Part shown: in pieces, positions 9,480-54,489 of the stretch | How positions within the stretch are numbered: position 1 is the stretch's first letter | Layout: every line of letters begins with the position of its first letter | Assembly: GCA_026545225.1 (NCBI GenBank) | Contig: CM048845.1 | Span: 18,011,001-18,075,000 of the forward strand | Reading direction: 5' to 3' | Origin: Cornus controversa | Taxonomy: Eukaryota > Streptophyta > Magnoliopsida > Cornales > Cornaceae | DNA length: 64,000 nucleotides | The notes under the pieces: generated by a model | The model's input: only the letters and a program-made list of their open reading frames with translations | The model's database searches: none | What the model was told of the DNA's origin: nothing | Translations under genes and position numbers: made by a program

Positions 9480-10540
9480 ATGGCGACCAACAAAGAGAGG
9501 ATTGAGGCCTTAGAGGCTAGACTCGGTGGAGTTCAAGATGGAATGCAACAACTTGAGGAAACCATTAATAGGCTGTTTGAAGTTTTGCTTTCAACTAAGG
9601 AAAACACCAACAACAACAATGGGCGAGAAGGATTCTTCCGACCACATCGAGAGGAGAACGACGACGGCAGACAAATTTTCTCTTCCAAAATGGCAAAGTT
9701 GGAATTTCCAAAATACTCCGGAGATGATCCAAAATAATGGTTTAACCGATCGAGTAGCTCAATTCTTTGAATTTCAAGGCACAGTAGACAACCAAAAGGT
9801 CTCTCTAGCATCTTTTCATCTTAAAAGAGAAGCTAATCAATGGTGGCAATGGTTGCATCGCGCTTACCACGAGGAAGGCTGCTTGGTGACTTGGGAATTA
9901 TTTGAGGAGGAACTGTGGGCTCTTTTTGGATCAACAGAGTGTGAAGATTTTAATGAAGCTTTATCCAAAGTTCGACAGGTCAGATCCCTTCGTGATTACT
10001 AAAAATAGTTCGAGAGGCTGGGTAATCGGGTTCACGGTTGGTCACAAAAGGCACTCATAAGATCGTTCATGGGTTTCTGAAGCGATTCGTATGTTCAAGC
10101 CTAAAACCTTGAAGGAAATGATAAGCTTGGCTCACTTGAAGGACGGATAACTACAATGACAAGGGAGGTTTTCATGCCCACCACTACTTACTTGCACCCC
10201 ACTAGCGCTACCAACAACAACAAAAGTTTCACCTGTTAAGAGACTATCTTGGGATGAATGCAAAGAAGATGGCCACAAGGACTTTGTTTCAACTATGATG
10301 ACAAATTCTCTTCTAGTCATAGATGCAAGGGCCCTCAACTTCTTCTATTGAAAGGTAACATCGATTGTGAATCTGAAGGAGACAATAATAAGGCCAACAC
10401 CGACCTTCCTTCTGATCCCAAAATTTCATTGCACGCTTTAACGGGATGGACAACTGCAAAGACCATGTATGTTACAGCCAAGATTGGGAATTATGAAGTT
10501 GTGGTACTCATCGACAACGGCTCTACACATAAATATACAC
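9480..10540 (+). pseudogene. Ty3/gypsy gag-protease fragment, frameshifted
   Basis: Opens with ATG 9480 (MATNKERIEALEARLGGVQD), a gag N-terminus with a coiled coil. A frame change near 9735-9755 leads into the retrotransposon-gag core with the family phrase ANQWWQWL, broken by TAA at 10000-10002. Further out-of-frame pieces cover the end of the gag core (FKPKTLKEMISLA). From 10258 the zinc knuckle follows, with one Cys changed to Tyr (CFNYDDKFSSSHRCKG), then an aspartic protease whose active site reads LIDNGSTH where LIDSGSTH is usual. Homology stops abruptly at about 10540, so RT, RNase H and integrase are missing. An old, truncated copy. Confidence 0.88.
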
Positions 10541-10737
10541 TCTGTGACTTCAAATCCAGGATACAAATATTGCTCAACTTCAACATTTATTCTAATTCAT
10601 TCAGTAAGTGTAAGCTAACTTTGCTGCAATGTTCAACTTTTTTAGAGAAGTTTGATCTCAATATGTTTAAAGCTTTTTGTGTTCACTTGTACATTTTCTT
10701 ACACGTGTCAATTATAATTTAATAACACAGACAAAAG

Positions 10738-10870
10738 TAAGTTTTTTTTTTTTTTTGGTAATGTATGTTAGTATATTGAAAAGAGGGATTACAAACAAAT
10801 AACCAAACAAGGTTCCCTTGGAACATAACAAGTATATCCAAACCAAAGAAGGAAAACAATGCCTATTCTC
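10738..10870 (-). mobile_element. Possible 3' tail of a LINE, reverse orientation
   Basis: A run of 16 T at about 10742-10757 followed by GGTAATGTATGTTAGTATATTG would be a poly(A)-ended LINE tail on the minus strand. It abuts the plus-strand LINE fragment, so it might be the inverted part of a twin-primed insertion. Confidence 0.3.
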
Positions 10871-10879
10871 CTTTGGTAA

Positions 10880-12715
10880 TGAAAAATCACTGGTTCAGAT
10901 GGCTACTCATCTCTTTTCTTCAAGAAAAGTTGGCCTCTGATTGGCTCTGATATAACATGGGCCATCAAGGATTTCTTCTCTTCAAGGAAGATGCTTAAGC
11001 AAATTAATTCCACTCTAATTGCTCTCATTCCCAAGATTCAGAATGCCTCCACAGTGCATGACTTCAGACCAATTGCTTGCTGCAATACCTTATATAAGTG
11101 CATCTTCAAGCTCCTGCAAATAAGATTAAGCCTATTCTCCCTTCACTCATCAATCATTCACAATCAGCTTTCATCAAGTCAAGGAGAATTGCAGGTAACA
11201 TTTTCTTAGCTCAGGAACTATTTAGAGGCTACCACAAGCATTCCAAACCCCCTAGATGTGCTGTTAAAATTGACTTAAGGAAGGAATTTGATAACCTTGG
11301 TTGGGACTTCATTCTGGAGTGCCTCAAATTGATGGGATTTCCCATTACCTTCATCAAATGGATTGAGCTTTGCATCACTATGCCAACCTTCTCAATCTCA
11401 CTAAATGGAGAAAACCATGGATTCTTCAAAAGCTCTAGAGGGATTAGACAAGGTGATCCCTTATCACCCTTTCTTTTTGTCATAGCAATGGAAGTCTTTT
11501 CTCTCATTCTATCCAAACAAACCAATAACAACCCAAACTTTGTCTACAACTGGAGATGTAAACCAATTACATTAACCAATCTCATCTTTGATGATGACCT
11601 ACTATTCTTCAACCATGGTAACATCCCTGCTATAAAAGTTCTCAAAGAGGGATTGACATTTTTTGCTTACTATCAAGCTTGTCTGCCAATTATATGAAAA
11701 GTCATGTATACTTTTCTAGTGTTCCTGGTGCAACACAACTAGCTATAACAGACATGTTGCAATTTAACATTGGGACATTACCATTCACTTACCGGGTGTC
11801 CCATTAATCTCCTCAGCTCTATCTTATACTAATTATAACTCTTTAATTGACAAAATCTCAAGGAGAATTTCTTATTGGACTAGCGGGAGTCTTTCATTTG
11901 TTGGTAAAGTCCAACTTTGTAAATCAATTCTCTACAGCATACAGTTATACTGGATGAATATCTTCCTCCTACCCAAAAAAGTAATTGCAAAAATCAATTT
12001 ACTCTTCAGAGCATTCTTATGGTCACACAATGAGAATTCATTGAAATACTACAAGGTTGCATGGGCTAAAGTTTGCACTCCAAAATCAAGTGGTGGTCTT
12101 GGCTTTCTTTCACTATCCTCACTCAACAAAGAAGCTATGACCAAACATATATGGTTTCTGTTCAAGCACCAAAACAATTTATAGGCTAAATGGATCAATG
12201 ATGTCATCTTGAAGGGGAAAAAATTTTAGGAGATCAATATCCCATCCAATTGCTTATGGTCATTAAGAAAATTACTCCAGTTGATAGGTCTGGCAAAGCC
12301 TTTTTTATCTGTCAAAATTGGAAATGGGGAAACCACCTCTTTCTGGTTTGATTCTTGGCTAGAATGTAATCCTCTTGAAAAGAAAGTTACTCATTTAATT
12401 ACTCTTACCACTGTAATAGGCAGGTACACCAAGGTAGGTTCATTAATGAATGAAGATCATTGGTACATGTCTTCAAATCTACAAAGAATGTTGCCTGAAC
12501 TCAGGAATTCATTAACTCTACCACCAATCAACACAAATCACCCTGACACCTTCCTATAGCTAAACCTTAAATCTTTTTCACTTCAACTAACCTTGGAAAC
12601 CATCTCCCCTCCACCACCATCTTTGAATTGGACACATTTGATATGGACCAACCCCCACAAACCCAGGCACAACTTTATCTTATGGTGCACTTGGCAAACT
12701 CTCAACACTTGACAG
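10880..12715 (+). pseudogene. L1-type LINE ORF2 fragment (RT and zinc-binding part)
   Basis: Remnant of a plant L1-type reverse transcriptase. In order: a degenerate start of the RT domain (GSDGYSSLFFKKSWP), ALIPKIQ and DFRPIACC, then after a frameshift near 11150 the palm motifs KIDLRKEFDNLGW, RGIRQGDPLSPFLF and the catalytic motif as LIFDDDLLFF, where FADD would be normal. Further frameshifts precede the thumb region (AWAKVCTPKSSGGLGF, from 11954) and a WFDSWL connector (12281-12559). Near 12640-12700 comes the start of the zinc-binding RT-associated domain (HNFILWCTWQ). It has lost the endonuclease half and its 3' end and cannot encode a working protein. Confidence 0.88.
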
Positions 12716-13420
12716 CCCATGTATGTCCAAAAAATAACCCCTAATGCCTATTGCTTGTGCCTTGCAGTTGCAAAATCACACAACCATGAAATACCCCCTA
12801 CAAAATTTCCTGCATGAGGTGGCTAGTCTCACACATAAAACGTAAGGGATACTTGCAACTGATAGCAAACAAGCATAGAATACAAGAACAAAAAAAAAAG
12901 AATCTTAAATACTGAAAGGAAAGTCTAACTGAAATAATAAATAACGTTAAATAAATATAATAACAATCTAAACGTTACAACTTGAAAATTCTGTAACTCA
13001 AGGACCCCATAAATAAAAATATCAAAAGTAAATACTGTTCTAGAAAGAATTTAAGTCCCTACACTGAAGTCTAGTAAGGAATAGATAGCTGCCACACTCT
13101 AGAAACTCCATGCTCTAACCTCGAGGTGGAAACTACCTGGGACTTGAAATATCAACAAAGTGGGTTAAACCCACGAGCAAGTTACCTCTACTACCACCCA
13201 ATCAGAGAACCGGTAAACAAACCCTCTATATGAGGACAATAAAAACATATAGATATAATTATACCGTTTAGTCATTTAATCAACTATTTCAGAAATAATA
13301 AGAACTATGTTCTGAACCAACCCACCCATTATCACAATAAAGGTAGAAAAATTTCTAAGTTCAAGCCATAGACAATCCTAGGGTTTTCACAGATCTTTGA
13401 TAAAAAACACTCCAAGAAAT
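12716..13420. other. Unassigned stretch between LINE and Tat relics
   Basis: No coding or terminal-repeat signal recognised. It begins exactly where LINE homology stops and ends where Tat gag homology starts, so it may be part of an insertion or of the degraded 5' region of the Tat element. Confidence 0.4.
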
Positions 13421-14190
13421 ATGGGAGATCTAAACTTCCAGGCTCAGAAGTACTTGAGAATAGAAGATGATGAAGCTGCCAGGAAACAACAATCAACTTT
13501 AATCACTGTTAGACAGTAGACAAAGAGCCAGGTCACTAAGGTGAAACTGCCCTGAGTTGCTCTGTCATCTATTAAAGAGCCAGTAAAAAAGCAAAGGGTC
13601 GAAGGGAAGATCACTCCACTAAAAGTATCCCTGGCCAGGCTTTATTATGAGAACAAAAACAAAGGGATTTTTCATTCATCTCTGGCTATCAGGCAACCCC
13701 TAGAACAAAGGGATAAGAACAAGCATTGTTTGCTCTAGAGTGACTTTGGCCACACTACTAATAAATGCAGAAGATTAAGATAACAAGTAGAGGCTCTGAT
13801 CGCCAAAGGTGGCCTATCAGAGTATATCCATCATGAAGAGCAAGCCAAACCTTATGATTAGCCTCAGCCGAAGTCGAACAGAAAGTAGAACCCTGCTCCA
13901 GTTCGGGTCATCAACGTTATTCATGGTCGACCGATATAAGATCAAGAAAACGAATCAAAAAAGCGATCACACCTAATGAGTGCCCTGAATGTGCAAAGGA
14001 TTGGGGAGGTTCACTCAGTACATAACCGTTCAGCTAAAGTATCGATCGTCTTCACAGATGAAGACATGAGCAAGATCCAAACACCCCACAAAGATTCGCT
14101 GGTGATTAGCCTCATCGTTTCCAATTGTAAAGTAAAAAGGGTCTTGGTTGATACTGGGAGGAGCGCAAATGTTCTAACCTTATAGGATTT
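13421..14190 (+). pseudogene. Tat gag C-terminus and protease
   Basis: From 13421 the frame reads AQKYLRIEDDEAARKQ, a Tat gag motif. A degenerate zinc knuckle (DFGHTTNKCRRLR, lacking the first Cys pair) and the gag-protease linker (VRVINVIHGRPI) follow, and MSALNVQRIGEVHSV at 13976 is in the same frame. The protease portion has FTDEDMSKIQTPHKD, DSLVISLIVSN and the active site VLVDTGRSANVL, where Arg replaces the usual Gly or Ser after DTG. At least three nonsense codons interrupt gag. Confidence 0.85.
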
Positions 14191-14199
14191 CCAACAGAT

Positions 14200-15475
14200 G
14201 GGCCAAGAGGTATAACGTATTAATCCAACTGTTGAGTCGCTGATAGGGTTCGATGGTAGACAAGTCATCCCGACTGGGGTAGTAGAACTCCCAGTGACAG
14301 CAACAGCCAGAACCCTGATTGAATCTTTTATTATTGTTGATTTCAACTCTTCATATAATATGATAATGCGAAGAGGTTGGATACATAGAATGCAAGAAAT
14401 TCCATCAACATTTCACCAGCTAATGAGATATATAGCACCAAATGGAAGGGATACGATCAATATCCTGAGAGACCAAGTGGATACTTAAAAATGCTATGCT
14501 CTCGCACTAAAAGGGAAGATTGTGAGGGATGATCTGACCAAATAGTAATTACAGAAACCTCTGCCGAAGAACATTCTAGAAGAGCAAGAGAAATACAGGC
14601 TAATTGAAGAGCCGCTCAAGACAGTCGAGGTCATCCTCGGGAAAGATCCTACAAACCTTGGGACTTCTCTGAGCAAAGAAGAAAGAACGCAGTTAATACA
14701 GTTACTAAAATAAAATGCAGATGTCTTCGCATGGGATCACCCATCAATGTCGTGCTATACACTCAATGTCAACCTAAACCACCCACCTATTAAGCAAAGG
14801 CAGAGATGATTCGCTCCAGAAAAGAATCAAATCATAGCTGCAGAGGTAGATCGGCTTCTCCAAACTGGCTTGATCAAAGAAGTGCAATTTTTTGGATTGG
14901 CTCTCCAATATGGTAGTGGTGCAGAAAAAGAATGGCAAGTGGCGAATCTGTATAGATTTCACCAACTTGAACAAAGCTTTCCTTAAGGATAGTTTTCCTC
15001 CTCCAAAGATTGATCAAATGGTTGATGTCACAACTGGGTACGAACGATTGACGTTTCACGATGCATACTCTGGATACAATCAAATTCTGATGAATCCTGA
15101 TGATGAAGGATAAATGTATTTTATCACCAAGAAGGGAATATATTGCTATAAGGTGATGTCATTCGGACTAAAGAATACCAGTGCAACCTACTAGCCCCTA
15201 ATTAACATTTTTTTTAAAAATATGATAGGCTGAATGGCCGAAGCATGCATAGATGACATGGTGGTAAAATGCCTTAGAAAGGAAGATCACATATAGCATC
15301 TGCAAAAGGTTTTTGACACTCTACGAGACCATAACATGAAGTTAAAACCTTCGAAGGGTTCCTTCAGGACAATTCTTGGGGAACATTGTTAACTGAATGG
15401 GAATAGAAGCAAGTCCAGTCCATGTGAAAAACTCTTCTTCAGACTGAGGAACCAAAGACTCCCTAGGATGTTTAG
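14200..15475 (+). pseudogene. Tat reverse transcriptase domain
   Basis: The linker after protease (TARTLIESFIIVDFNSSYN) is followed by NADVFAWDHPSM near 14715, the classic entry to Ty3/gypsy RT. A frameshift at the T-run near 14889 precedes the fingers and palm, with KKNGKWRICIDFTNLNK, DSFPPPKIDQMVD and DAYSGYNQI (14892-15113). A nonsense codon then leads to FITKKGIYCYKVMSFGLK. The catalytic box is ACIDDMVVK at about 15240, keeping both Asp but with Cys in place of Tyr or Phe. Later parts (FDTLRDHNMKLKPSK) remain recognisable. It is inactive because of stops and frameshifts. Confidence 0.88.
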
Positions 15476-15479
15476 ATCC

Positions 15480-16130
15480 TAGCAGGACGCATCGCTGCTT
15501 TGAGTAGATTTATCTCTCGACTTTCTAACAAATGCAAGTCCTTTTTCGACACCATCAGAATGAGGGGTAAAGGAGTATGGGGAACTAAATAGAACGAGGC
15601 CCTGGAAAAACTTAAACAGTACTTTATCCAATTATCGACGCTTTCAGCGCCTACTGCAGGAGAGCCTTTGTCTTGTAGTATCCCGAACAATAACAAGTAG
15701 GATCAGGCATCGACATAGAAATCCAAACTCCTAACAGAACTACTCTATAGTAAGTGATCCATCTAGAGTTTCCTACATCAAATAATGAAGCTGAGTACGA
15801 AGCCTTATTAGTAGGACTAAGGCTAGCAAAGACACTCCAGGTAAAAAGTCTGCAAGTTTTTAGTGGCTCTCAACTAATTGTGAAACAGATCAGTGGGGAT
15901 TACTTCCCAAAAGATGACCACATGAAAGCCTATAAAGACTTGGTAGAAAGAGAGCTCAGAGAATTCAACCAAGTCAAGGTTTCTCAAATCCCAATGGACA
16001 AAAACCTGGAAGCTGATAAGCTAGCGAGTTTGGCTTCAGCAGCATGGCCAGACTTGATCAGGATAGTACCGATTGACACCTTGCAAGTGCCTAGTATTTA
16101 TTCCCATAAAGAAATATTACTTTTTGCAAA
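15480..16130 (+). pseudogene. Tat RNase H domain
   Basis: The connection domain (IAALSRFISRLSNKC) is degenerate and broken by stops. From 15754 the RNase H reads openly: TSNNEAEYEALLVGLRLAK contains the catalytic Glu motif, followed by SGSQLIVKQISGDY, where the usual catalytic Asp before SQL is Gly, and then the C-terminal Asp region (NLEADKLASLASA). Specific loss of the middle catalytic residue means this copy could not cut RNA even if translated. The same open frame runs on toward integrase to 16404. Confidence 0.86.
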
Positions 16131-17325
16131 CCAACCCAGTTGGATGGATCCCATAAAGGCTTATCTCATTAGTGAAATCTTGCCAACATCAAAAGAAAAA
16201 GCAAGGAAGGTCAGAATGAATTCATCAAGATATGCAATGATCAACGGACATCTTTATAAAAGGTCATTCTCGAGGCCACACTTGAGGTGTGTTGCACCAT
16301 CAGAAGAAAAAGAAATACTCTCTAAAATTTATGAGGCTGTATATGAAAATCATTCAGAAGGGCGATCGCTGGCTCATAAAGCAATTACCCAGGGGTATTT
16401 CTAGCCATACATGGCTCGAGATGCCGAAAAGCATACTAGAAGATGTGACAAATGCCATCGATATGCAAGGATACCCTATCAGCCCCCCAAAGATTTAACC
16501 ACTATGGCCAGCCCTTGACCATTTGGAAAGTGGGGAATGGATTCAATTGGACCACTCCCTAAAGCCACCAACAATAAGAAGTACCTCATGTTAGCTATAG
16601 ACTATTTCACAAAGTGGGTTAAGGCAGAAGCCCATGCAACGATCACTCACGTAAAAGTAAAAAGATTCATCTGCAGCAACATTATTTGCCGATTCAGTTT
16701 GCGAGAATCCATTATCATGGATAATGCCAAAAACTTCAACAATCGGCCAATACAAAAGTTCTTCAAAGAATATGGGATCAATTAGAAATTCTCCTCGAGA
16801 TCATATCTATAAGGGAACCGCCAAATGAAAATAACCAATAGGACCATCTTTGAATGCATTCGAAAAAAATTAGAAGCTCGAAAGGGTAAATGGATGGACG
16901 AGCTATCCAAAGTGTTCTAGGCTTACAGAACGACACCCAAGCGATCGACCAAAGAAAGTCCGTTCTGTCAAGCCTATAGATCCGAATCAGTGATACCAAC
17001 TGAGCTGTCTATCCCAAGGATCAGATTGGAATTGCTAGAAAAGGAGGCAACTCAAATCAGACTCGCATTAGATCAGAGGATGGTCAAAAATAGTTATGAC
17101 AAAAAGGTGAAGCACCGAACGTTTGGTGTGGAAAACTGGGTATTAAGAAAAGTCACCGAAAACACAAAAGAACTTAATGCTGAAAAGTTCAGGGCAAATT
17201 GGGAAGGTCCATATGAAGTCACTAAAGTGATTGGAAAGGGTGCATATAAGCTTCGCAGAGTTAGCGACGCCGAGTCAAATCGCAAGCCTTGGAATGTAAC
17301 TCATTTAAGGAGGTACTATGATTAA
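16131..17325 (+). pseudogene. Tat integrase
   Basis: Zinc-binding HHCC module with NHSEGRSLAHKA and, past a TAG at 16402-16404, RCDKCHRYA. The catalytic core has GMDSIGPLPKA at 16534 (first Asp) and SIIMDNAKNF (second Asp). Further stops occur at 16783-16785 and 16918-16920, then RTTPKRSTKESPF. The C-terminal part is open from 16990 to TAA 17325: DKKVKHRTFGVENWVLRK, WEGPYEVTKVIGKGAYKL and NVTHLRRYYD. This end is typical of the Tat lineage and closes pol. Confidence 0.9.
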
Positions 17326-17455
17326 GTTTTAGTATATTAAAATTATATTCTTCTTTTTGGGCAATATAGCCCATGCTTTTATGATAATAGGAAAGTTTCT
17401 TAATATAAAGTACATTTTTTTAAATATTTCACTGTCAAAAAGAAGAATGGACTTG

Positions 17456-17583
17456 GTCCCACATTGAGGGAAAAGCTCTATACTTTGTGATAAATAAAGA
17501 GTAAAATAAAACTCGAAAGTTGTGGCAAGACATGGGCACTATGCAAAAAGATATGCATAGTGCAAATGTCTTGCTAGTTTTTT
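17456..17583 (+). ncRNA. Candidate Pol III-type hairpin RNA unit 1
   Basis: Seen: GTCCCACATTG at 17456-17466 (10 of 11 match to the plant snRNA upstream element RTCCCACATCG), 22 bases, then TATA-like GATAAATA at 17489-17496. The hairpin starts 34 bases after the TATA start. Outer stem TGGCAAGACAT (17523-17533) pairs with ATGTCTTGCTA (17566-17576). Inner stem GCACTATGCA (17536-17545) pairs with TGCATAGTGC (17554-17563) around an 8-base loop. TTTTTT at 17578-17583 could end Pol III transcription. A predicted RNA of about 65 bases is inference. Confidence 0.5.
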
Positions 17584-17828
17584 ACCTTCAAAATGGTCAG
17601 TTATTGAAACAATTAATTGCTAATTTACAAAGGCTAGAGGTCAATTTATTTGAAGAGATTTTAAGTTCAAACTCAGTATATTAAAGCTTAGAGTTTAAAT
17701 TTTGGTAATATAGCCTTCATTTTGTCTATGAAATAGGAAAGTATTCTTAAGATTTATGCCATGATTGACCTCAAGAGTAATGAGAGTCCCTTTCAAATCA
17801 TTCATTGACAAAAGGTGGAATGGGCATG

Positions 17829-17957
17829 GTTCCACACTAGAGAAAAAGTTTCATGCTTTATTATAAATAAAGAATAAAGTCAAACTCAAAAGTCACGGTA
17901 AGACATGGGCATTGCTCAAGGAGAAATGAGCAATGCCAATGTCTTACCGAACTTTTT
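17829..17957 (+). ncRNA. Candidate Pol III-type hairpin RNA unit 2
   Basis: Seen: degenerate upstream box GTTCCACACTA (17829-17839), 22 bases, TATAAATA (17862-17869), hairpin start at 17896 (34 bases on). Outer stem CGGTAAGACAT pairs with ATGTCTTACCG (17939-17949), all Watson-Crick. A single G-A mismatch separates it from the inner stem GGCATTGCTCA, which pairs with TGAGCAATGCC around an 8-base loop. The T5 run is at 17953-17957. This has the best stem of the three (22 pairs) but the weakest upstream box. Confidence 0.5.
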
Positions 17958-18160
17958 AACTTATGAAATAGTCAATCGCTGAAACAATTGGACAAGGAGT
18001 ATGTAAAACCCCACAAAATTTAAACTTAGTATGTTGTGCTAGGAATTTAAATTTCAACAACATGACATTCACTTCCCCTAAATAATAGGGAAACATTGTT
18101 AAGATTTGTGCCAGGATTGGTCTTATAGATAAAGAGGGTTTCCTTTAAATATCCAGCATG

Positions 18161-18285
18161 GTCCCACATCGATGAAAAGTTTTTGTGCTTTGTTATAGAT
18201 AAAAGAAAAAAGATAAACTTAAAATTACGGTAAGGCAGGGCACTGCGCAAGATATGCGCAGTGCCACTCTCTTGTTGGGCTTTTT
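18161..18285 (+). ncRNA. Candidate Pol III-type hairpin RNA unit 3
   Basis: Seen: GTCCCACATCG (18161-18171), a perfect match to the plant snRNA upstream element, 22 bases, TATAGATA (18194-18201), hairpin start at 18228 (34 bases on). Outer stem CGGTAAGGCAG pairs with CTCTCTTGTTG (18267-18277) with four G-U pairs and one C-C mismatch. Inner stem GGCACTGCGCA (18239-18249) pairs perfectly with TGCGCAGTGCC (18255-18265) around a 5-base loop. The T5 run is at 18281-18285. Confidence 0.5.
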
Positions 18286-18314
18286 AACTTACGAAATAAT
18301 CAATTATCTACCAA

Positions 18315-18800
18315 AAAATGTATAGGCATTGAGCCCACAAAAGCTAAGACCTCAAGGGGCGATCGTTTACCCAAAAAAGGCAACTGGCATTATAAGTCGA
18401 TTGCCTAAAAAGAAAAGAAAAAATAGGGCATTTGAGCCCACAAAAAGCTAAGGCCTCAAATGTCTGATTGCTTACCAAAAAGAAGCAGCTGACATTATAA
18501 GCCGATCGCCTAAAAAAAAAAAGAAAAAATAGGCATTGACCCACAAAAGCTAAGGCCTCAAGAGCCGATCACTTACAAAAAATAAAATAAATAGGCATTG
18601 AGCCCACAAAAGCTAAGGGCTCAATGGTCGGTCGCTTACCAAAAAGAGACAACTGGCGTTATAAGCCGATCGTCTAAAAAGAAAAGAAAAAATAGGCACT
18701 GAGCCCACTAAAGCTAAGGCCTCAATGACCGATCACTTATGAAAAAAAGCAGCTAACATCATAAGCCAATCACCTAAAGAAGAAAGGCTAAGACATCATG
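18315..18800 (+). repeat. Tandem array of about 100-base units
   Basis: Four to five imperfect copies of a unit starting TAGGCATTGAGCCCACAAAA, followed by GCTAAGGCCTCAA, a CGATCG-containing stretch, an ACTGGCATTATAAGCCGATC phrase and an A-rich linker. Starts fall near 18322, 18424, 18530, 18592 and 18689, so unit length varies. A degenerate tail continues to about 18880. Such arrays between pol and the 3' LTR are common in Tat elements. Confidence 0.85.
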
Positions 18801-18879
18801 TGCTGATTACTTAAAACGTAGGCCTTAAGGTTACTCAGTAAATCGAAGCCAAGGCATCATGTGCCGAATGCTGATCATT

Positions 18880-19590
18880 CACATTAAAATCCCAAATGAT
18901 AAACTAAACTGGGATAAAGTTTTTGTTTATTAAGAACGACCATGGCCTAAGTTGCTAAGTGTTTTTCTATTCTTATGATATTTATGGAGAAATACTGAAA
19001 TTTAACACAGTCAAATACTTAAAAGTTAAAAGCACGGAATGTTTGATATTCATTAGAAGTTGATTACAAAAGAAGGGGAACAGTACAACTATCCCTTAAA
19101 GCTCTAGATGAGCATTGCAAAAAAAAAAAGAAAAAATACAACTGTTACTTGGAGCTCTAATTGAGCATTACAAAAAGAGAGAGCAGAGAAGTCAATTTTG
19201 GGAGTTGCTCCATCCTCTTTGTTGAAGTCCCAATCGAAGGAGCCAACTATCACAATGTCCTTCTTAACATGCACCGGCACTTCAGGTGTGATCTAATCAG
19301 ACGAAAAAGGTGGAGAAGGAACGACAATTGGAGCAGCAAGGGCCAAAGCCAAGCAAGAACTCTTGAGAAAATTAGCAAACTTCTTCTCTGCATCACCAGG
19401 TTCAGGAATGCCATAGGTCCCGAATGCTTCAATCCCCTAATCAGCATCAAAGTCATCAGGATCTTGATAGTCATGTTCAGCCTCAGGCTTTTCACTCTGT
19501 TTGAACCCGTACCTAAAGCCATTAGTGATTTTCAGAGATGAAATCTTCAGGAAATGTTGATACATATCAAGTCTGCCATATTTGCAAAAT
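18880..19590. other. Untranslated part of the Tat element
   Basis: Contains a short local repeat (A-rich tract with GCTCTA(G/A)(A/T)TGAGCATT(G/A)CAAAAA at about 19100 and 19158) and then sequence that may be the decayed 3' end of the antisense ORF. No clear reading frame was found. Confidence 0.5.
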
Positions 19591-21231
19591 TAAAAAAGAG
19601 CCTGAAGTTCAGCAGCCTTTTGTTCGGCCTCCAGAGCCCTTTGCTCAAAATATAAAATCGCCTTTTGCTTCTCAATAATAGACTTGTTAAGGGACTTCAC
19701 CTCCCCTTCAAGGATTTCAGCCTTGCCCACCTTCAGCCATTTAACCTCTAGAGCTTTGCAGAGGGAAATAGTCATATATGCGCTCTGCATCACCACAAGT
19801 CAAGCAAAGTCAAAAAGGAAGGAAGTAAGGAAGATAAGAGTAAAGAAATAACAGAATGAACCTCCATGATATGAAGAGGAGAATTTGCCAGTTATTCATC
19901 TCTGTCAACTCCTTACTAGCAGAGCTCATCATGGGGAGGCCAGATCCCTTGGGCCAATGTCCCCAAAACATCATGGTTAAGTGCAGCACAATCCCCCACC
20001 GTTATAAACGAACCATCTGACTTTCTCAAGTTAAGAATCCACTGTTCGGTCAAACTGATGAATGACTCATCATCAGTAGTATTAGAAGGATCAGCCAAGA
20101 TCAAAGCGGAAGAGAAAAAACTCTGCCCCTTCAAGTGTCCGCCAGTTTCTGGCACTTGGATGAAGGGGCGACACCAATAGAAGACTTATTCTGATGAGAA
20201 GAGGCGGCCACAGACTTATGTCTATCTTGTTTGGCCTTTGACCTTCCTTCACTATTTTTAGCCTTGAGTTAGCCAGAAGCGGAAGATCCTCTCTTAGTTT
20301 TTGGTTTGGGCATCTCCATATTTGAGTCTAAAGATTGGTCTGAATCAATGTACAAGGTAAAAAATTCAATCAAAGCCTCAGCAGCGAGAGCTTAAAGCTT
20401 GGTGGGAGTCAAAAACTTCTTCACCGAAGGGCGAACGTCCCACACATTCTTCTTCAGGTAACTAATCCGATTGGTTGCACAGAAAAAGCAAATTTATATA
20501 AGAGAAGTAACAGAAAAAAATAAGTTATGAAAGTTCCCTAGGTCAACTAAAGGAGACTTGCCAGACAAAAGGGATCACAGCATCGCCGAACGCTTTGGGA
20601 ATAAAGAAGCACTGAGTAGCCTTAACGTTCCAAGCTCCCTTTACCATAACAAGATTTTCTTTCCATAACTTGTCAGAAATGGGGGCATTAACACAAATCT
20701 TTCTGTTATTGTTAGTGAACAAGTGATAACGGTTATCCTCTCACCTAACTCAATGGATGGAGTAATAAAAAAGAAGGTCATTCAAATCTAGGTTTAGTTT
20801 ATAACATGGTTCAGAGAAAGCAAACAAGAAACAATGTGAAAGAAATTAGGGTTTAATTGAAGAGGTGCAAGCCCCAGTTTGTAAAGAATGAAATTAAAGA
20901 AGGGATGAAGGGAAAATCTAAAAAATTTCAGGTGAGAAGCCGAGAAAAGAACGTCACCCTTTCCAACCCCTTCACCATTGTTATAGTCAAAATCTAAAGA
21001 ATAGCCCTCGGCCGCAACATGACTGGGGATCAAACATTCCCCTCGAATTTTCTCAATATCAACAAGTTGCCTAACCACAGGGATGCCATCCACTCTCCAG
21101 TCCGATGTGACAGTTTCTTCTATAGTAGTGGTGGGTTGGGCAGTTTCTATGATTTTAAGAGATGAACTAGACATAATGGTCTCTTGATTATCAGAATGAG
21201 TACAATCACTATCACTCATCGACATTGTAAA
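19590..21231 (-). pseudogene. Antisense ORF of the Tat element, gypsy-type transposon protein
   Basis: On the strand opposite pol. ATG at 21231 (MSMSDSDCTHSDNQ) starts a frame to TAA 20794-20796, with an acidic Ser-rich leader followed by GECLIPSHVAAEGYSLDFDY and FFNFILYKLGLAPLQLNPN. This is the pattern I associate with the 'putative gypsy type transposon' domain (PF04195), found on antisense ORFs of some Tat elements. Past the stop, homology-like text continues in pieces: NRYHLFTNNNRKICVNAPIS and WNVKATQCFFIPKAFGDAV (about 20735-20560), then LTEQWILNLRKSDGSF (19916-20155), then a charged coiled coil rich in Glu, Lys and Ala (19590-19796). Introns may account for some gaps, but in-frame stops show decay. 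Function of the family is unknown. Confidence 0.7.
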
Positions 21232-21539
21232 GAAAAAAACATAAATAAAGGAGTGAAAACTAACCTGTGAATGTGAACCGGTACCAAAAAACTTGAAAGA
21301 AATGAATCTAACGGAGAAGACAAATAGTTGCAGAAATTCTGTGGCTGAAAATAACAAAGTGTTAAGACAAAAAGCACAAATGAATCGTATAAGAGTCACT
21401 TACATGTTTTAGCACCATCGTTGGTACCTCAGCATTAATGAGGATTCTTGAGAGAAGCAAAAGGTTTAAGCTAACACCTTTAGAAATTCCCTCCAGTTTA
21501 GATAAGCTCATTCTGAAAGGAATTGGGGTCAAAGTGTAA

Positions 21540-21935
21540 GGAAAAGATCCCCCAGCTATTTAAATGGGTTGTATGGGCCTACCAAGCATGAACAGGCTGA
21601 ACCCAAGAAAAGATTAAGCCCAAGTTCAGAAAATAAGCCCCAAGGAATAGTTTAAAAGGAAAAAAAATGGGTCAAACCTCCCTTTTGAAGGTAAAAATGG
21701 CCCAATTTAGACATCAGTCCAAGTTCTATTAGAAATTCATATAGTTGAGAGAAAAGAAAGCTGTAAATAAAGAAATTTGAGTCCTAAAAGGATTCAAATT
21801 TTAACTTGTATAAATAGAAGAAAATATAAATGAAAAAAGGATCCTTTTTCTCTAAAAAAAAATATATTGTATTCTTGAATTTTTGGGCGTGTGCAATAGA
21901 TTAATTAGTTAAAAATTAGTCAAGCAATTTCTTGT
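21540..21935 (+). repeat. Probable 3' LTR region of the Tat element
   Basis: Placed by context, between the antisense ORF promoter side and the start of copia homology at about 21945. It contains a TATA-like TTGTATAAATAGAAG (21806-21820) and an A/T-rich end zone. Exact termini are not visible because no partner LTR was found. Confidence 0.3.
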
Positions 21936-21944
21936 ACTAACAGC

Positions 21945-22645
21945 TACTGATGACTACTACCTTACTCAAGTAAAGTACTGTTTCAATCTTCTTTCCAAAG
22001 CTGGCATCACAGACAACAAGATTGTCGATACTCCACTTGAGCCTAATGTGAGACTCACTCCACATGATGGTGAACTTCTTCGTGATGGTACTCTATATCG
22101 TTATTTGGTATATCTTACTGTCACTCATCCATATATGTCTCATGTTGTTCATATCGTCTATCAATTCATACCTTTGCCAAGATTAGTTCATTTTGCTGTT
22201 ATTCTTCATATCTTCTGCTATGTCAAGGGTACTGTATTTCGTGGACTCTTTTTCTCTCATCAGTCTTTATTGTTGATTCGTGCTTATTCTGATGCAAATT
22301 GGGCTGGAGACCCAATAGATCACTGTTCCACTAGATTCTATTTCTGAGCTTTTATGGTTACAATGGCTTCTTTAGGATATAGGAGTTTCTTCATCCATTG
22401 CTACCGTCATCTATTGTGATAGTGAGAGTGCTATTCAGATTGCACATAATGATGTTTTTTATGAGCGGACCAAACACATTGAGATAAATTGTCATTTTTT
22501 TCGTCATTATCTACTTTGGAATATCTTGCAGTTACGGTCAGTTAATTCATATGATCAGATAGATATCTTCACCAAATCTCTTCCACCTGGGCACTTTCGA
22601 GAGCTTGTATCTAAACTCGAGATGGCATTGTATAACCCACCTTGA
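21945..22645 (+). pseudogene. Ty1/copia RT end and RNase H fragment
   Basis: Starts in the RT C-terminus (CFNLLSKAGITDNKIVDTPL) and runs through YLVYLTVTHPYMSHVVHIV to the RNase H opening AYSDANWAGDPIDHCSTRFYF, ending at a stop at 22345-22347. About 70 residues of RNase H are deleted there, including the TEAEY catalytic region. The rest resumes in another frame as IYCDSESAIQIAHNDVFYE and closes with DIFTKSLPPGHFRELVSKL and a stop at 22642-22644. The end is followed by the copia polypurine tract TTGAGTTTGAGGGGG. A 5'-truncated, internally deleted copy. Confidence 0.9.
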
Positions 22646-24061: not shown

Positions 24062-25860
24062 ATGAACTTTGAATTAGAGAACATACTAAATATGGATAAC
24101 ATGCTGAGTGAAAGGGAGGAACAATATGTGGCGTCGGATGACAATTGTTCAGATATGGTGTACAATCCTCAAGTAGCACCTGAGCTTAAGCCTAAAATAG
24201 GTCAAGAATTTCAAACAATTGATGATGTCAAACAATTTTACAATACATATGCAAAAGCCTCTGGCTTTAGTGTTCGAAATTATTCTGTAAAAAAGAGGCG
24301 TGAAAGTGGTGAGATCATAAGGAAAGAGTTTATTTGTTGGAAACAAGGGAAAGGTAAAATAGTAGCGAATATTGAGGCAAAAAGGCGTCGGGGATCAATT
24401 AAATAGAATTGTAATGCAAAACTTGTTGTTGTGTTATCAACTAATGGCTTATATGAAGTTAGTATATTTGATGAGGGCCATAGTCACCCATTAGCAACTC
24501 CACGAAGAACACATTTTTTACCATCTCACCGCAATGTTTTGATTGCCCAAAGGGCCTTGACTCAATAGCTTAGCATGGTAAATATACCACCACATCAACA
24601 ATTCAATTTTCTTGGAGTACAGGCAGGGGGGTTTGAGAATATTGGTTGTACACAAAAAGATTTATATAACCATGAAAGGGATAAACGCAATGAGATGAAG
24701 GGGCATGATGTAGATATGTTGCATGAGTATTTAAGATTTGAACAAGGAAATAATCCGTCATTTTATTTTAAAATTGAGGCAAATGATGAAAATAGAATTA
24801 CTCATTGTTTTTGGGCTGATGTAACCTCAAGACATGCTTACAAGTTTTATAGTGATGTGGTAATATTTGATACTACTTACAATACCAATCGGCATGGATT
24901 GATCTTCGCGCCACTAATGGGGGTCAATAATCATGGTCAGACAATAATATTTGCTTGTGCATTCTTGAGTGATGAGACCATAGATTCTTTCGTTTGGCTC
25001 TTCAACCAAATTTTGGAAGGTATGCCAGGTGATTCCCCTAAGATGATTATTATTAATCAAGATCCATCTATGACAAATGCAATTTCACAAACTCTACCAA
25101 AGACATTTCACAGATATTGTAGTTGGCACATTTTAACAAAATTTTCTGAGAAGCTAGATTCAGTTAAATATAGTGCTTACTATAAGGAGTTTTCGAATTG
25201 CATTTGGAAATTGGAGACTAAGGAAGAGTTTGACTTGAAGTGGGGTTAAATGACAACAAATGGCTACAATCAATGTATCAAATTCGTTCAAAATGGGTGC
25301 CGGCCTATGTAAATCATGTTTTTTGAGCTGATATGTCAAGTAGCCAACGAGTAGAAAGCTCCCACTCATTTTTCAAAAAATATGTTTCAAAAAATAATTC
25401 ATTGGTGGATTTTATGATTCAATTTGGTAGGGGAATTATGCGTCAACGTCATGAAGAATTAATGGCGGATCACAAAGATATGGTTGAGAAGCCTAAAGTG
25501 AAAATGACCCATGAGTTTTTGTTGCATGTGGTTGATATCTATATGCACGAAATGTTTTATAAATTTAATGACGAGATGTCGGAGAGCTTGCCGTATAGGT
25601 TTGAACTTCTAAAATAGGATGAATATCACAATATGTACAAGATTCAAAGAAAAATGTCAAAAATTATCTATTGCTAGAAATTCATTATGACAAGGTGTTG
25701 GATTTTGCTTCATGTTTCTTGCAAAAAATTTGAGAGTTCGGGAATTCCTTGTAAACATGTGTTAGGATAGTTGCACAAAAAACAGGATTATGAAAAATTG
25801 CCAAGTCAATACATTTTGAGTAAATGGACAAAAATAGCAAAATTACAAACCTTTGGACTC
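24062..25860 (+). pseudogene. FAR1/FRS-like MULE transposase pseudogene
   Basis: Encodes most of a FAR1-related protein, a family derived from Mutator-like transposases. ATG 24062 begins an acidic leader, then the FAR1 zinc-finger region (KIGQEFQTIDDVKQFYNTYA, GFSVRNYSVKKRR, EFICWKQGK). A TAG at 24404-24406 interrupts before RNCNAKLVVV-like text and the GHSHPLATP phrase. From 24575 the MULE domain is open to 25249 with DVVIFDTTYNTNRHG (first Asp), GHSHP-linked text, IIINQDPSMTNAI (second Asp) and RYCSWHILTKF. After stops, SSSQRVESSHSFFKKY and the SWIM finger (SCKKFESSGIPCKHVLG) appear, then LSKWTKIAK. Intronless, with at least five in-frame stops and few frameshifts. Terminal inverted repeats were not identified, so host-gene versus transposon origin is open. 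Confidence 0.9.
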
Positions 25861-36900: not shown

Positions 36901-39900
36901 GCTATCAATCTGGATTGGGGACTGGAGGATCTGCAAATTTCAAGTTCCATTTGGTTAGATGGGAGAAGGTTTGCAGCCCTATTCAATTAGGGGGATTGGG
37001 AGTCCGAAGACTGGATTTGTTCAACAATGCATTGTTGGGCAAGTGGCTTTGGAGATTCAGTTGAGAGGAACAGATTATGGAGGAACATTGTTTGCAAATT
37101 CGAGGAGGATAGGGGGAGATGGAGGTCTAGGGAGGTGAGATTAGCATTTAACAGCTACCATAGTTAAATAAAACAAGTAGTATACGCGTATAATACATGT
37201 ACATACATATAATTGAAAAAAAAAATCTGTTTTCCATACAAATTTCCAACTTCACGAATAACACTCGAATTTTTTAGTTGAATTGTATGATACACGTATT
37301 CAACATTTTACATATTATACATTACAAAAAATACTTCACACATATAATTTTTTTTTTAAGAGTTTACGTTGCCTATGGTCATTTTATTAAAAGAAAAAAT
37401 AACTTTTCAAAAAGTGTGCAATTATAATATCATAACTGGTAAATAACCAAACACATTCATTTTTCAATCAATAGAAAAGTTAATAGTTTTATGTCTCGTG
37501 AGTCATAACTAGTATCGTATAATCTAGCACATCTAGGCAGGGAAGCATGGATACTCCGAAAGATCTCTCATGGCCATATCGAACATGTATCCGATATACA
37601 CCTAGGATACGCCCGGACATGTGTCTAATACTCCTGGGAAGTATCCCATTTTTTTAAATTATTTTTTGAAAGTCGAATATGTTTGGAATACATGGGAATA
37701 CGTTTAGGATACATTTGGGATACACGGGACATGTTTAGGATATGTCTAGGATATGCAAGGATATGTCTGGGAAACATCCTAGGCAAATTTGTAATTTTTT
37801 GTTCTAGGCAGGGTTTAGATTGTAATATTAAAAACTTTATATGTTAAAAAATGAGGGTCAGATTGTAATAAAACAAAATTGTTTTTAAAAACCGCCAAAC
37901 AAGTGTCTTTGTAAAGATTATTAAAGAGAGGAGATTTCTATATTTTAACTTCTTATATTTTGCATAATTGCTTTAAGAATATTTATTGTATGGTTGAAGA
38001 ATAAAAGTTAACTTTTTTATGTATAATATTATATTTTTATTTATTTGATGTATCCTTGCCGTATCCACATCCTATTTTTTTGAGATTTTCCGTATCGCTG
38101 TATCCGTATAATGTCGAACCCGTGTCCATGTCTATGCTTCCTAGTATCTAGGTCTTTGTTAAATGTCAGGATGAATTAATTCAACTATGTAATTATACAC
38201 ACTTTATTAAAACTATATATTAATAATTGAAATGAATAATGCAAAATCTATTTTTTTTTGGTAAGTAAAAAATATATCTAAACAAATAATATGCAACTCT
38301 ATAAATGTTTTACTACTTTTGCAACTTCACTCTTTCAATTTCATTTAATATTGTTTTATCATTAGTAAAAATAGCAAAATAATAATTAACACAAATTTTT
38401 ATTAACATTTGTATTATACCCATATATGTATATATGCGTATTTTTATGATTTACAATTTTTTATGCCGAATTTTTAAACGTGCTTTTTTAGAAGACAAAC
38501 GAATTATACCTGTATGTATCGCATACTTTTTTAAACCAATTCGTATCTTACTAACTGTGACACCTACTTTACAACGGTTACAAGACATAAGGGTTAATGT
38601 GAGGGAACGTTTTAGTTCAAACGGCTTTGGGCTTAGGGTTACTGGGTTAGATTGATTGGATGAAAATTGAAATGAAATCTTATTATTCTATATATAATAT
38701 ATTATAATAATGTGTGAAAGTATATAATATATAAATATATATTTATATAACAGTTCGGTTTGGTCCTGTAGGACCTCAAACCAAAACCAATCCATTAATA
38801 AACGATTCCATGATTTTGGAAACGGGACTGGACCAAACCAACCGGTTTGGTACGGTTTACTGATTCAACCAGTTTTTTGTGCATCCCTATATATAAGAGT
38901 GATAAATACTTATTTTTGTAAAGAAAACTCAAAAATAATTGAAAAAGTGATAGATTGAGAGATCCGGTACAAGATCTATGAACAAAGTTTATATATATAG
39001 TACCAAACAACATTTTCATGAAGAGCCAAGTGGAAAAGTAAAAAAGAAAAAAAAAAGTTCAAAAACTAATGACATGTTAGAATCTTGGAGTGGTTTAATT
39101 AAAAAATTAGGCCAAGATATTATGTTCTCTAAGGTTATATTCACATGTTTAGAATTTAGGATAAATTTAGAAAAGAGACAGTTGTTATAGATAGAGAACA
39201 GGAAAAACTGGGCAGATTTGACTCTGCCCAGTTTTAAAAGTGCCGACTTGACTGTTGCAATGCAGTGACATTTGTTCCTGTGCCAACTCAGTCAAGTCCC
39301 TCCGAGTCTCAGCCGACTGTTTCGCTCGAGTCGCTCAAAGCTTGAATTTCATTGACAGTGATATATTAGAGTGTAACAATATCTACTTTGGCCAAGTCCG
39401 TTATGACTTGATCGAGTCGTCCCATCTCAGCCGATATTTTAAACCTCAAAATTTGACAAAATGAGGGGTAGCATTGCAGCATAAGACTGGTAATGCAACA
39501 CTTTCTGCTATGCCAAAAGCAAGAGAAACCCCATTCCTCTCTTTCCTTTATTCGCTCCCACGTCGCCACATTTGATTTTTCAATAGAAGGGAGATTTTTT
39601 GGCATTGTGTGTTTTGAAATACTATAGAATTAGTCGAAGGGGTGGATCAAATCCAATCCAAAAAAAATGCACATGGTTCCAAGTTAATGCTAGATAAAAA
39701 GGATTTCGGTTACAGTTTTCCTTTTGTTCTTGTCTTTTTTTTTTTTTTTTTGATAAGTATAAATTCATTAAAAGACGCTCAAAGGGGAGCGAACCCAAAG
39801 AACAACAGAAACAGCCAACTATAGATTTAAGCTATCTAGAAAGTTCACTACTTGACCATCCGATGTACAATTTTTCCCATATACCCAAAAAAATAAAAGA

Positions 39901-42900
39901 GATAAAATATTGTATTTGAGAGACCAAATAGAAGACTCCACGTCCTCAAAGCGCCTCCTATTCCTCTCTTGCCACAAACCCCACCATAAACAAAGGGGAG
40001 TGACCCTCCAAGCATCCCTGGCTCGGCTATCCACTGTGCACCCTCTCCAAGCCTCTATCATCTCCTTCGTGGATCTAGGAAACACCCAATCCATACCAAA
40101 CGCAACCAAGAACATGGACCAAACGTCCGTCGCCACTGTGCAATAAAGAAGAAGATGATTCACAGTTTCCTCTGACCTCTTGCACATACAACACCAATTT
40201 ATCATAAAACGGCCTCTTCTCCTAAGGTTGTCAATGGTAAGAATCTTTTTCAGGATAGCTGTCCAAGTGAAGATGGCCACCTTCAAAGGGGCCTTTGTTC
40301 TCCAAATAGTCTTCCAAGGAAAGTTGGGACTCGTGAAATCCGAAAGGAGTCTATAGTAGGAACGAACCTCAAATGTTCCCCTCTTGGATCCCGTCCACAT
40401 CATCTCATCCATCCCCTCTCCCTCCAACACGTGACTATACAAAGTGGTTAGCAGCTCCGCTACCTCTATAAGCTCCCAGTCTTGAAAAGCCCTACGAAAG
40501 CTCACAACCCAAGACAGTCGTCCGCTATCAAGCTGATAACAGTCGGCTACTAAGGCTTGTCTATTCGATGCAATCCTGAAGAGTCTAGGGAACCTACAGG
40601 CCAAAGGTAGATCCCCGCACCAGATGTCCTCCCAAAAACTGATATGTCTCCCATTTCTTACTCTAAAGCGAATGTGTTTGGAACACTCATCCCATCCTTT
40701 TCGAATGCCTTTCCAAATCCCCACTCCCACCGGAAGGTTCAACTCCGAAGACCTCCACCCACCAGCTTCTTCTCCACCTCTATATGCCACAACCCTCCTC
40801 CACAACCTGGTCCTCTCAACTCCGAAGCGCCAAAGCCATTTGCCCAGAAGAGCCTTGTTAAAATTTTCTAACCTCCTTATTCCCAGACCCCCTTTTTGAA
40901 TCGGAGTGCACACCTTCCCCCAACTCACTAGGTGGTATTTGAACTCATCCCCTAATCCGCCCCAGAGAAACTTGCTTTGAATCCTCTCGAGCCGCCTCAC
41001 AACTGCCATCGACATCGGATATAAGGACAGAAAATAAGTTGGAAGATTTGAAAGAGTGCTCTTCATTAAAGTAAGCCGCCCTCCTTTCGATAGGTACTGT
41101 TTTTTCCAACCTGCAAGCCTCTTTTCAAATCGCTCTACAACAGGGTCCCATGTGGAGACTGTTCTCGACGACGCTCCCAACGGCATTCCCAAGTAAGAAG
41201 TCGGAAAAGAGCCAACTCCGCATCCCAAGATAGCAGCAAACTCGTGAATTCCCGCCACTTCCCCAACAGGAACCAACTCGCTCTTTCCGATGTTAATTTT
41301 TAGGCCAAAAACTGCCTGAAAGCATATCAAAATAAATTTCAAATGTCTCAGCTGATCCTCCCTTGCATCACAAAAAACAATAGTATCGTCTGCATAAAGC
41401 AAATGAGACACCACTAAATGGTTGGGCTCTCTCCCTATTGGAAAACCTCGGATAACCCCTAGCTCCTCAGCCCTTTTCATCATTTTGCTGAAGGCTTCCA
41501 TCACGATGATAAACAGAAAAGAAGATAACGGATCTCCTTGCCTCAGTCCCCGAGAGCTAGGAAAGAAACCAGCTGGGGATCCATTCACCAAAATAGAGAA
41601 CCTAACAGTTGAAATACATTGATGTATCCATCTTCTCCATCTAGACCCGAAGCCCATCCTCTCTAATAAATACAGAAGGAAATCCCAACTTACATGGTCG
41701 TAAGCCTTTTCGATGTCCAGCTTGCACACAATTCCGGGAAGGCCACTTCTGACCCTTGCCTCCACACACTCACTTGCAATCAGCACAGAATCCAAAATCT
41801 GCCTACCTCCCACAAAAGAGTTCTGTGAATCTGAAATCACCATGTCCAAGACTCTCTTTAACCGATTAGCGAGAATTTTGGCGAACACCTTGTAGATAAC
41901 CCCCACCAAACTAATTGGCCTGAAATCCTTAGCATCTACAGCTCCGCCCTTCTTTGGGATAAGGGCGATGAAGGATGCATTGAGGCTTTTCTCAAAGTAC
42001 CCTGTTGATTGGAACTCAGAAAGGGCCTCCATCACTTCCGCCTTAACCACCTCCCAATTCTGATGCAAGAAAGCCATCGTGAAGCCATCGGGCCCAGGAG
42101 CTTTATCCCCGGCACAGCTTCTCAAAGCCTCCACCGCTTCCTCTTCCTCAAAGGGTCTCTCCACCCAACCCCTATCCTCCTCTGAAATAACTGCAAACTC
42201 AAGACCTCCCATCAAAGGCCTATGCCTAGAGTTTTCTGTGTAAAGCTGTTGATAGAAAGTCACAATCTCTCTCTGAATGTCCTCTGCTCTGGATAACAGA
42301 TTCCCATCAACAATGATCCTGCCTATATGATTTCCCCTTCGACGAGCATTCGCAATTATGTGAAAGAATTTAGTGTTCCGATCTCCTTCTTTCAACAAAA
42401 ATGCTCTGGACTTCTGTCTCCAGGAAATTTCCTCCATCATTGCAATTGCCCCGAACTCGGCCTTGCACTCCTCCCTTCTACAAATCTCCGAATCACTAAG
42501 GCCCTCTTCCCCCTCCTTTCGATCAAGCTCTAAAATTTCTGATATGGCTCTATTCTTACGCCAATTGAGATTTCCAAAGACTTCTTTGTTCCACTTTTTG
42601 ATATCTTCTTTCAACTGCTTTAGTTTATATGCCACTCTGTAACTTGCGTTGCCCCTGCATTCATAGCTTGTCCACCAATTTTGGACTTTATCCTTGAAAC
42701 CCTCCGCTTTCAACCACATGTTTTCGAACCGGAAAGGAGATCGCCCTCTGCTCAACCCACCACAATCTAGAATAATGGGAATGTGATCCGACACCGCTCT
42801 AGCCAAGGCTGCTTGAGCTACATCCGAAAACTTCTCCTCCAGCTCACATGAAATAAGGAATCTATCGAGACGAGAAAGGGTAGGATGCTCTCTCCCACTC

Positions 42901-53790: not shown

Positions 53791-54158
53791 ATATGTATAT
53801 TTTTTATTTCTGCATCATGGCAGCTTCTAATTTGAGACTACCTCAATTTGAGAAAGAAAGAGGACTCAATCGTATTACTATTATATGTATGAAGACCACC
53901 CCTCATTCGCAAATCGTATTACTCTCTATCTGCATCATCTCTCATCATTTTTCTTTCTTTTTCACCCTCACTCTCTCCCATTCTCTCCCTTACAATCTTC
54001 TTATAAAAGGACCAAGACACGCACAAGAAAAGAGGATACACAAATACAAGTAGAAGAGCTTACTACCATAAACCTTCATTTCCTCCATTACATCTCCATA
54101 TTCAAGCCAAAACATTTTTTTTGTTTTTTCCTTTCGCTGCCCGCACTCCAGAACAATT

Positions 54159-54488: not shown

Positions 54489-54489
54489 A

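Follow-up and report, generated by a model that had tools for sequence, protein, structure and literature searches.

Can a plant LTR retrotransposon carry its own genes for short hairpin RNAs? The question is raised by a 64,000-nucleotide stretch of the forward strand of Cornus controversa (assembly GCA_026545225.1, contig CM048845.1, positions 18,011,001–18,075,000), hereafter the window, in which the initial annotation pointed to three tandem units inside a Tat retrotransposon, each composed of the upstream element of plant snRNA genes (USE), a TATA-like box, a hairpin and a T-run. We followed up this proposal in the window and in one 772-Mb assembly, of which the window is C1:18011001–18075000. 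On the evidence set out below, we hold it to be narrowly probable that a Tat (Retand-like) clade carries, after its integrase, an array of up to three diverged genes predicted to be Pol III type-3 short-hairpin RNA genes.

Layout of the units and of their carrier element

The common promoter-hairpin-T-run layout of the three tandem units was confirmed in the sequence; the features of the units and of the surrounding element are collected in Table 1. The USE, announced as matching 11/11, 10/11 or weakly, with one degenerate box, scores 10/11, 7/11 and 11/11 in units 1, 2 and 3, a fit for units 1 and 3 and a weak one for unit 2. Its gap of 22 bases to the TATA-like box was found as described in all three units. 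The 34 bases said to lead to the hairpin hold only if measured from the start of the TATA box; counted from the end of the USE, stem base 1 comes after 56 letters (3/3 units). The hairpins, given as about 22 pairs, fold with 21, 22 and 21 pairs, and the T-runs, T6, T5 and T5, follow after 1, 3 and 3 bases, in agreement with the 1–3 bases claimed. The imperfect boxes of units 1 and 2 count against the Pol III reading.

Table 1. Positions, within the window, of the hairpin units and of the element that carries them
Feature	Positions	Strand	Basis or remark
Decayed Tat (Retand-like) element, collinear with gaps to another genomic copy, carrying the array	13380..21942	+	blastn of L120/L121 against the window
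RNase H-like domain RVT_3, candidate aRH 5′ of the integrase	15754..16404	+	Pfam PF13456, E 2.1e-12
Integrase C-terminal end	16921..17325	+	SH3_Tf2-1 match below cut-off
Unit 1 USE, GTCCCACATTG	17456..17466	+	10/11 match to RTCCCACATCG
Unit 1 TATA-like box, GATAAATAAA, without canonical TATA	17489..17498	+	
Unit 1 hairpin, U6-ruler start 17522	17523..17576	+	z −8.3
Unit 1 T6 run, candidate Pol III terminator	17578..17583	+	
Unit 2 USE, GTTCCACACTA, degenerate	17829..17839	+	7/11
Unit 2 TATA box, TATAAATAAA	17862..17871	+	
Unit 2 hairpin, U6-ruler start 17895	17896..17949	+	z −11.4
Unit 2 T5 run	17953..17957	+	
Unit 3 USE, GTCCCACATCG	18161..18171	+	11/11
Unit 3 TATA-like box, TATAGATAAA	18194..18203	+	
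Unit 3 hairpin, U6-ruler start 18227	18228..18277	+	z −4.8
Unit 3 T5 run	18281..18285	+	
Tandem repeats of about 100 bases, immediately 3′ of the array	18315..18785	+	
Decayed extra ORF region	19104..21559	−	antisense
ORF with weak Transposase_28 match, within the antisense region	20794..21399	−	PF04195, E 0.027, below cut-off

The three hairpins have minimum free energies of −34.3, −37.6 and −28.5 kcal/mol, with the z-scores given in Table 1, and for each of them none of 200 shuffles folded as well as the native sequence. Only three plus-strand places of the 64-kb window reach −34 kcal/mol or lower (64-base windows), and units 1 and 2 account for two of them. Across the three units, 10 of the 22 stem pairs are invariant, 6 have changed both partners without loss of pairing, 3 have one changed partner and remain paired, and 3 are disrupted in one of the units. 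Rfam gave no match at gathering score anywhere in the window; with lax filters, 18 sub-threshold matches are obtained, the best of them to miRNA-precursor models, with mir-266 on top (41.3 of 80 bits).

The array sits between the end of the integrase, whose stop codon ends about 130 bases 5′ of the unit 1 USE, and the antisense extra ORF region. The carrier is likely a Tat (Retand-like) Ty3/gypsy element; its Retand subclade is a likely reading, short of proof, because the first RH domain was not identified in the element, where one RVT_3 domain was found, 5′ of the integrase. In Ogre and Retand elements, the aRH is placed between RH and integrase, and 23% of Retand elements have Transposase_28 in their extra ORFs, as described in PMC6317226. 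The gag and RT at 9514–12184 lie outside the stretch that is collinear with the one compared copy and may belong to a different element.

Other remnants surround the carrier. Right at the 3′ boundary of the Tat element, a frame at 21913–22347 resembles by eye the end of a copia RNase H and has no Pfam match. A copia-type gag remnant is found at 475–1764 on the minus strand, a 21-base tandem repeat with TTTGAGGTGGCTCGAAAT-like units at 2522–2668, and a MULE transposase remnant at 24569–25249 (PF10551, E 1.1e-26). A LINE-type element at 39819–45405 (minus strand) has a 1242-residue frame with endonuclease, RT and zf-RVT domains and further frames upstream, and long inverted repeats with arms of 184 and 119 bases (53105–56110) are perhaps a DNA transposon or nested insertions.

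Array copies and divergent relatives in the genome

Searches of the genome with units 1, 2 and 3 yielded at least 40, at least 41 and at least 40 matches, respectively, at places that overlap among the searches, the unit 2 matches including one inverse self-match. From 60 loci excised for units 1 and 2, many of them overlapping and the window among them, we took 82 distinct unit sequences, which fall by likeness to window units 1, 2 and 3 into class 1 (33 units), class 2 (32) and class 3 (17). The order u1-u2-u3 is observed in every multi-unit locus, with the class 2 unit missing from L096 and L099, and the integrase end was matched by tblastn in 54 of the 60 array loci.

The spacing of the units is well kept among these copies. 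The USE-to-TATA gap is 22 in 66/82 units by motif search and in 74/82 by alignment, while the distance from USE to stem is identical to that seen in the window for 61/82 and stays within one base of it in 75/82. With four units bearing large hairpin deletions left out, a run of at least T5 is present within 14 bases 3′ of the stem in 75/78 units; of the 71 14-base bins that bear a T5, 65 are the bin directly after the stem. Internal TTTT occurs in 4/78 units against 6.0 in shuffled sequences, so clear avoidance is not seen, and this counts against the Pol III reading. The boxes are more variable: the USE has no mismatch in 20 units, one in 24 and more in 38, and the TATARATAAA motif is fully matched in 21/32 class 2 and 4/17 class 3 units. 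Two or more USE mismatches in 24/32 class 2 units, together with class 1 TATA boxes that read GATAAATAAA in 18/33 and AATAAATAAA in 9/33 units, also speak against that reading. The initial annotation had set its proposal against a free drift of boxes, spacing and T-runs in homologous elements; in this one genome, the spacing and the T-run are not free to drift, and the unit 2 USE and the first letter of the unit 1 TATA do vary.

Two further candidates were discarded. The poly(A) signal AATAAA is not a shared feature, as it is present in 30/33, 24/32 and 1/17 units of classes 1, 2 and 3, and two solitary hairpin copies (L113 and L117) are not retro-copies of the predicted RNA, since they do not start at the predicted start and extend beyond the T-run. 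A pattern scan of viral contigs returned 31 stretches, with no unit-like hairpin followed by a T-run among the matches listed, as judged by eye and fold energy.

When the integrase end was used as a protein query against the genome, 253 matches were obtained (150 candidates scored), from which 14 relatives of 57–73% identity, outside the places of the array list, were hand-picked across the ranking, and 500–661 bases downstream of each were taken; one of them, L129, was chosen with a USE there already listed, which is that of its second unit. A USE within 2 mismatches is found downstream of 14/14 relatives, the first USE being perfect in 10, with one mismatch in 3 and with two in 1. In the 7034 letters scanned, 0.001 perfect USEs are expected by chance and 10 were observed. 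The unit profile matches with E < 1e-13 in 13/14 relatives; the match in L134 is weak (E 0.0011), and this locus has a strong hairpin of different sequence 50 letters past a perfect USE. A T5 follows the unit in 12/14 relatives. Its absence from L133 and L134 counts against the Pol III reading, as do the weak folds of −10 to −17 kcal/mol in L122, L123, L128 (−10.0 kcal/mol), L130 (−14.0 kcal/mol) and L131; the hairpins are shortened in L124 and L126. A second subfamily, including L125, L127, L129 and L133, has the same layout with altered arms and a USE-to-stem distance one base longer.

Compensatory change and sequence constraint

Compensatory change in the stems exceeds what a tree-based null yields, as if the shape of the RNA matters. 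Among 24 hairpins, 93.7% of the cells pair, compared with 85.9 ± 0.8 when shuffled and 23–50% when slid, and both-sided changes affect 11/18 pairs versus 6.3 ± 1.5 (1/500). A wider set of 37 hairpins was made up of the 3 window hairpins, 21 hand-chosen from the other 79 units and those of 13 of the 14 relatives (L134, not alignable, was omitted), its structure being written from one of its own rows. Here 88.3% of the cells pair versus 81.5 ± 0.7 shuffled and 26–41% slid, and 69 cells are changed on both sides versus 27.2 ± 4.3 (0/500 shuffles); the number of pairs with a both-sided change, 12, is not above that of the shuffles (113/500) and counts against the Pol III reading.

The tree null consists of substitutions re-dropped on the branches of the tree. 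For the 37 hairpins, on a tree made from the same hairpin alignment, both-sided pair-keeping changes number 14 versus 3.6 ± 1.8 (0/1000). For the 82-unit set, of which 78 were used with a flank-only tree, they number 15 versus 6.5 ± 2.4 (1/1000), and the pairing is 0.883 versus 0.718 ± 0.039 (0/1000). Two results from these trees weigh on the other side. Pair-breaking changes in these 78 units are no rarer than under the tree null (122 versus 107 ± 9), and internal branches (35 changes that keep and 23 that break pairs) show a slight, not clear-cut, excess of pair-keeping over terminal ones (103 and 99). Raw column covariation (G-test with APC) was rejected as main evidence, as class-specific changes score equally between unpaired columns; in its ranking, 4/21 stem pairs are within the top 100 of 18528.

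Outside the stems, tree changes number 82 in the 11 columns of the USE and 158 in the 22 columns of the spacer, which counts against the Pol III reading; per column, this is 7.45 for the USE and 7.18 for the spacer, with 3.20 for the TATA. The USE is better kept only once the positions are split by base type, with a per-base conservation of 0.841 versus 0.732 for C/G and 0.944 versus 0.896 for A/T. Split in this way, the USE, the A/T positions of the TATA and the T-run are all kept better than the upstream and downstream flanks. The ungapped pairwise identity of the units (0.81–0.84) is not above that of the spacers (0.82–0.84), again a point against. When gaps are counted, units 1 and 2 (0.80 and 0.76) exceed spacer 1–2 (0.73); unit 3 (0.757) does not exceed spacer 2–3 (0.762), and this too stands against the Pol III reading.

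Polymerase choice, alternative explanations and known systems

The plant USE has the consensus RTCCCACATCG, the TATA lies about 30 bases 5′ of the start, transcription ends at a T-run, and the USE of Pol III genes sits closer, by one helical turn, than that of Pol II snRNA genes, as described in PMC9845283. The snRNA genes of this genome provide a ruler. A USE with 0 or 1 mismatch is present at 7/8 U6 loci, where its end is separated from +1 by 55 letters in 7/7, and a perfect USE is present at 3/5 U2 loci, where the distance is 65 letters in 3/3; of the two remaining U2 loci, one has no USE and the other a one-mismatch USE and an unclear gene start. The 55 versus 65 letters agree with the published helical-turn rule (PMC9845283). 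In the window units, 56 letters precede the first stem base, which is letter 57, and a U6-type start falls one base 5′ of the hairpin, whereas a U2-type start falls after nine stem bases, inside it. The predicted start geometry of the units is therefore that of the U6 and not of the U2 genes of the genome. In the three U6 loci scored, an exact TATA lies 28 letters past the USE versus the gap of 22 in the units, and this difference counts against the Pol III reading.

The promoter text taken alone is weak evidence, because a USE followed by a TATA at 20–24 bases is found at 1242 sites in the genome versus 5 for the reversed control. These sites include LTR-like repeats without such a hairpin and T-run. 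Among eight USE+TATA loci that were read, L032 is a copy of the array family and the other seven (L033–L039) are without the hairpin-plus-T-run arrangement. By eye, PBS-like text is seen downstream of the USE+TATA in L035–L038, and snRNA-type promoter text seems widespread across several repeat families of the genome. At about the middle of L039 (C1:3607622), a USE+TATA lies slightly 5′ of a 5S-like sequence, and this locus is probably a Cassandra TRIM.

Hairpins that covary within the 3′ non-coding part of a retroelement would equally suit cis-acting structures of its full-length RNA, involved in packaging, dimerization, stability or 3′ end handling, with the USE and TATA as a leftover of an ancestral LTR-type promoter. 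Tandem arrays are known from the non-coding parts of such elements (PMC6317226), and the USE+TATA pair is common in other repeats of the genome. Such structures do not predict a stem that begins one base past the U6-type start, nor a USE-to-stem distance held within one base in 75/82 units, nor a T-run right after the stem in 75/78, and we regard this explanation as unlikely. We find it very improbable that the units serve as internal promoters for Pol II or as regulatory repeats, for example for a subgenomic RNA, with the hairpin as a feature of the DNA or of the nascent RNA. The seven loci with USE+TATA and without such a hairpin and T-run would fit that role, as would the PBS-like text in four of them, but a U2-type start would fall in the 5′ arm and split the hairpin, and the T-run is kept.

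A process that involves no selection on RNA could also keep the arms complementary, namely the correction of near-palindromes by template switching during reverse transcription or replication, with layout and T-run inherited by duplication. Arm-to-arm templating too yields matched changes, the copies share descent, internal branches show no clear surplus of pair-keeping, and pair-breaking is no rarer than the null. Yet a G.A mismatch within the stem is kept in 68/82 units and should have been corrected away; the USE and T-run, outside the palindrome, are better kept than the flanks per base type; and a perfect first USE is present in 10/14 distant integrase relatives. On balance, this process appears quite improbable as the explanation.

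The proposal of U6-type hairpin RNA genes in a Tat element, made by the initial annotation, is upheld in part: covariation, the kept spacing and T-run, the USE after 14/14 relatives and the U6-like geometry speak for it, while its USE+TATA pair lends little by itself given the 1242 sites against 5. According to this Pol III reading, the USE and TATA box would direct the start to the hairpin base, and the T-run would end transcription just past the hairpin. The product of each unit, presumably transcribed by Pol III, would be an RNA of about 60 bases, almost solely a hairpin of 21–22 pairs. These RNAs would be separate from the full-length genomic RNA, which also holds the hairpins, and Dicer-like enzymes might cut them into small RNAs acting in trans. 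The same layout is used in U6-shRNA laboratory cassettes.

A farther-reaching version, which we put forward tentatively and consider doubtful, is that of a conserved, self-promoted Pol III shRNA array in plant Tat retrotransposons whose small RNAs would act in trans to counter silencing factors of the host or competing elements, or to tune the element itself, as an independent counterpart, with external U6-type promoters, of the miRNA cluster of bovine leukemia virus (BLV). Compared with the remainder of the window, the arms match no better than shuffled ones. In the genome, when up to 2 mismatches are allowed, the 5′ arm is found at 24 places versus 0 for the control. Six of these were fetched, three being new and three previously matched in part only, and the other 18 are in the window or among the unit 2 match list. 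One place that is not array-like, L115 (L119; C1:94707560), shows an 18/20 match to a unit 2-type 5′ arm in an exon-like open frame without Pfam match; it was rejected as a host target, about 2.5 such chance matches being expected by our estimate. Near it, on the other strand, a frame resembles by eye a nitrilase/omega-amidase. In these comparisons with the window and the genome, no target rises above chance expectation.

If transcribed, the units would let plant LTR retrotransposons produce short hairpin RNAs of their own under U6-type promoters, a route into host small-RNA pathways that does not give up genomic RNA, and an independent case would stand beside the retroviral Pol III miRNA clusters. 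They would form a family of natural plant shRNA cassettes, and whether plant retrotransposons encode trans-acting small RNAs would become a read-mapping test. We did not find a description of such arrays in a limited literature search, and we do not claim that they are unpublished.

The array resembles the tandem repeats of Tat, Ogre and Retand elements in lying within the expanded non-coding part beside an extra ORF (PMC6317226); the passages of that paper drawn on here do not mention promoter-hairpin-terminator units, and the terms "Pol III" and "small RNA" appear 0 times in its main text. As in the Cassandra TRIM, a plant LTR element holds a Pol III unit, which in Cassandra is an LTR-borne 5S RNA complete with promoter and terminator (PMC7215508). 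The two differ in that Cassandra is non-autonomous and its Pol III unit is a 5S copy with box A and box C within the LTR (PMC7215508), not a hairpin array after an integrase. With plant U6/U3-type genes, the units have in common the USE, the TATA, the T-run and a USE-to-start distance as in the U6 genes of the genome; they differ in not being snRNA, in lying in a transposable element, in a TATA that is often imperfect and in a gene status that is predicted.

The miRNA promoters of BLV are of the gene-internal type 2, and a 2012 PNAS paper is said to deal with these miRNAs. The BLV and bovine foamy virus miRNA clusters share with the array a reverse-transcribing element, short hairpins and Pol III promoters of their own, here predicted from sequence. 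In BLV, the Pol III hairpins lie in an ORF-free 3′ part and only the subgenomic transcripts are processed, as described in PMC4849745. The position of the units in an ORF-free part and the presence of several hairpins fit a cluster of the BLV type, the promoters again being read from sequence motifs. Unlike these vertebrate retroviruses, the array is carried by a Ty3/gypsy element of a plant, and its promoters are predicted to be external and U6-like, composed of USE and TATA.
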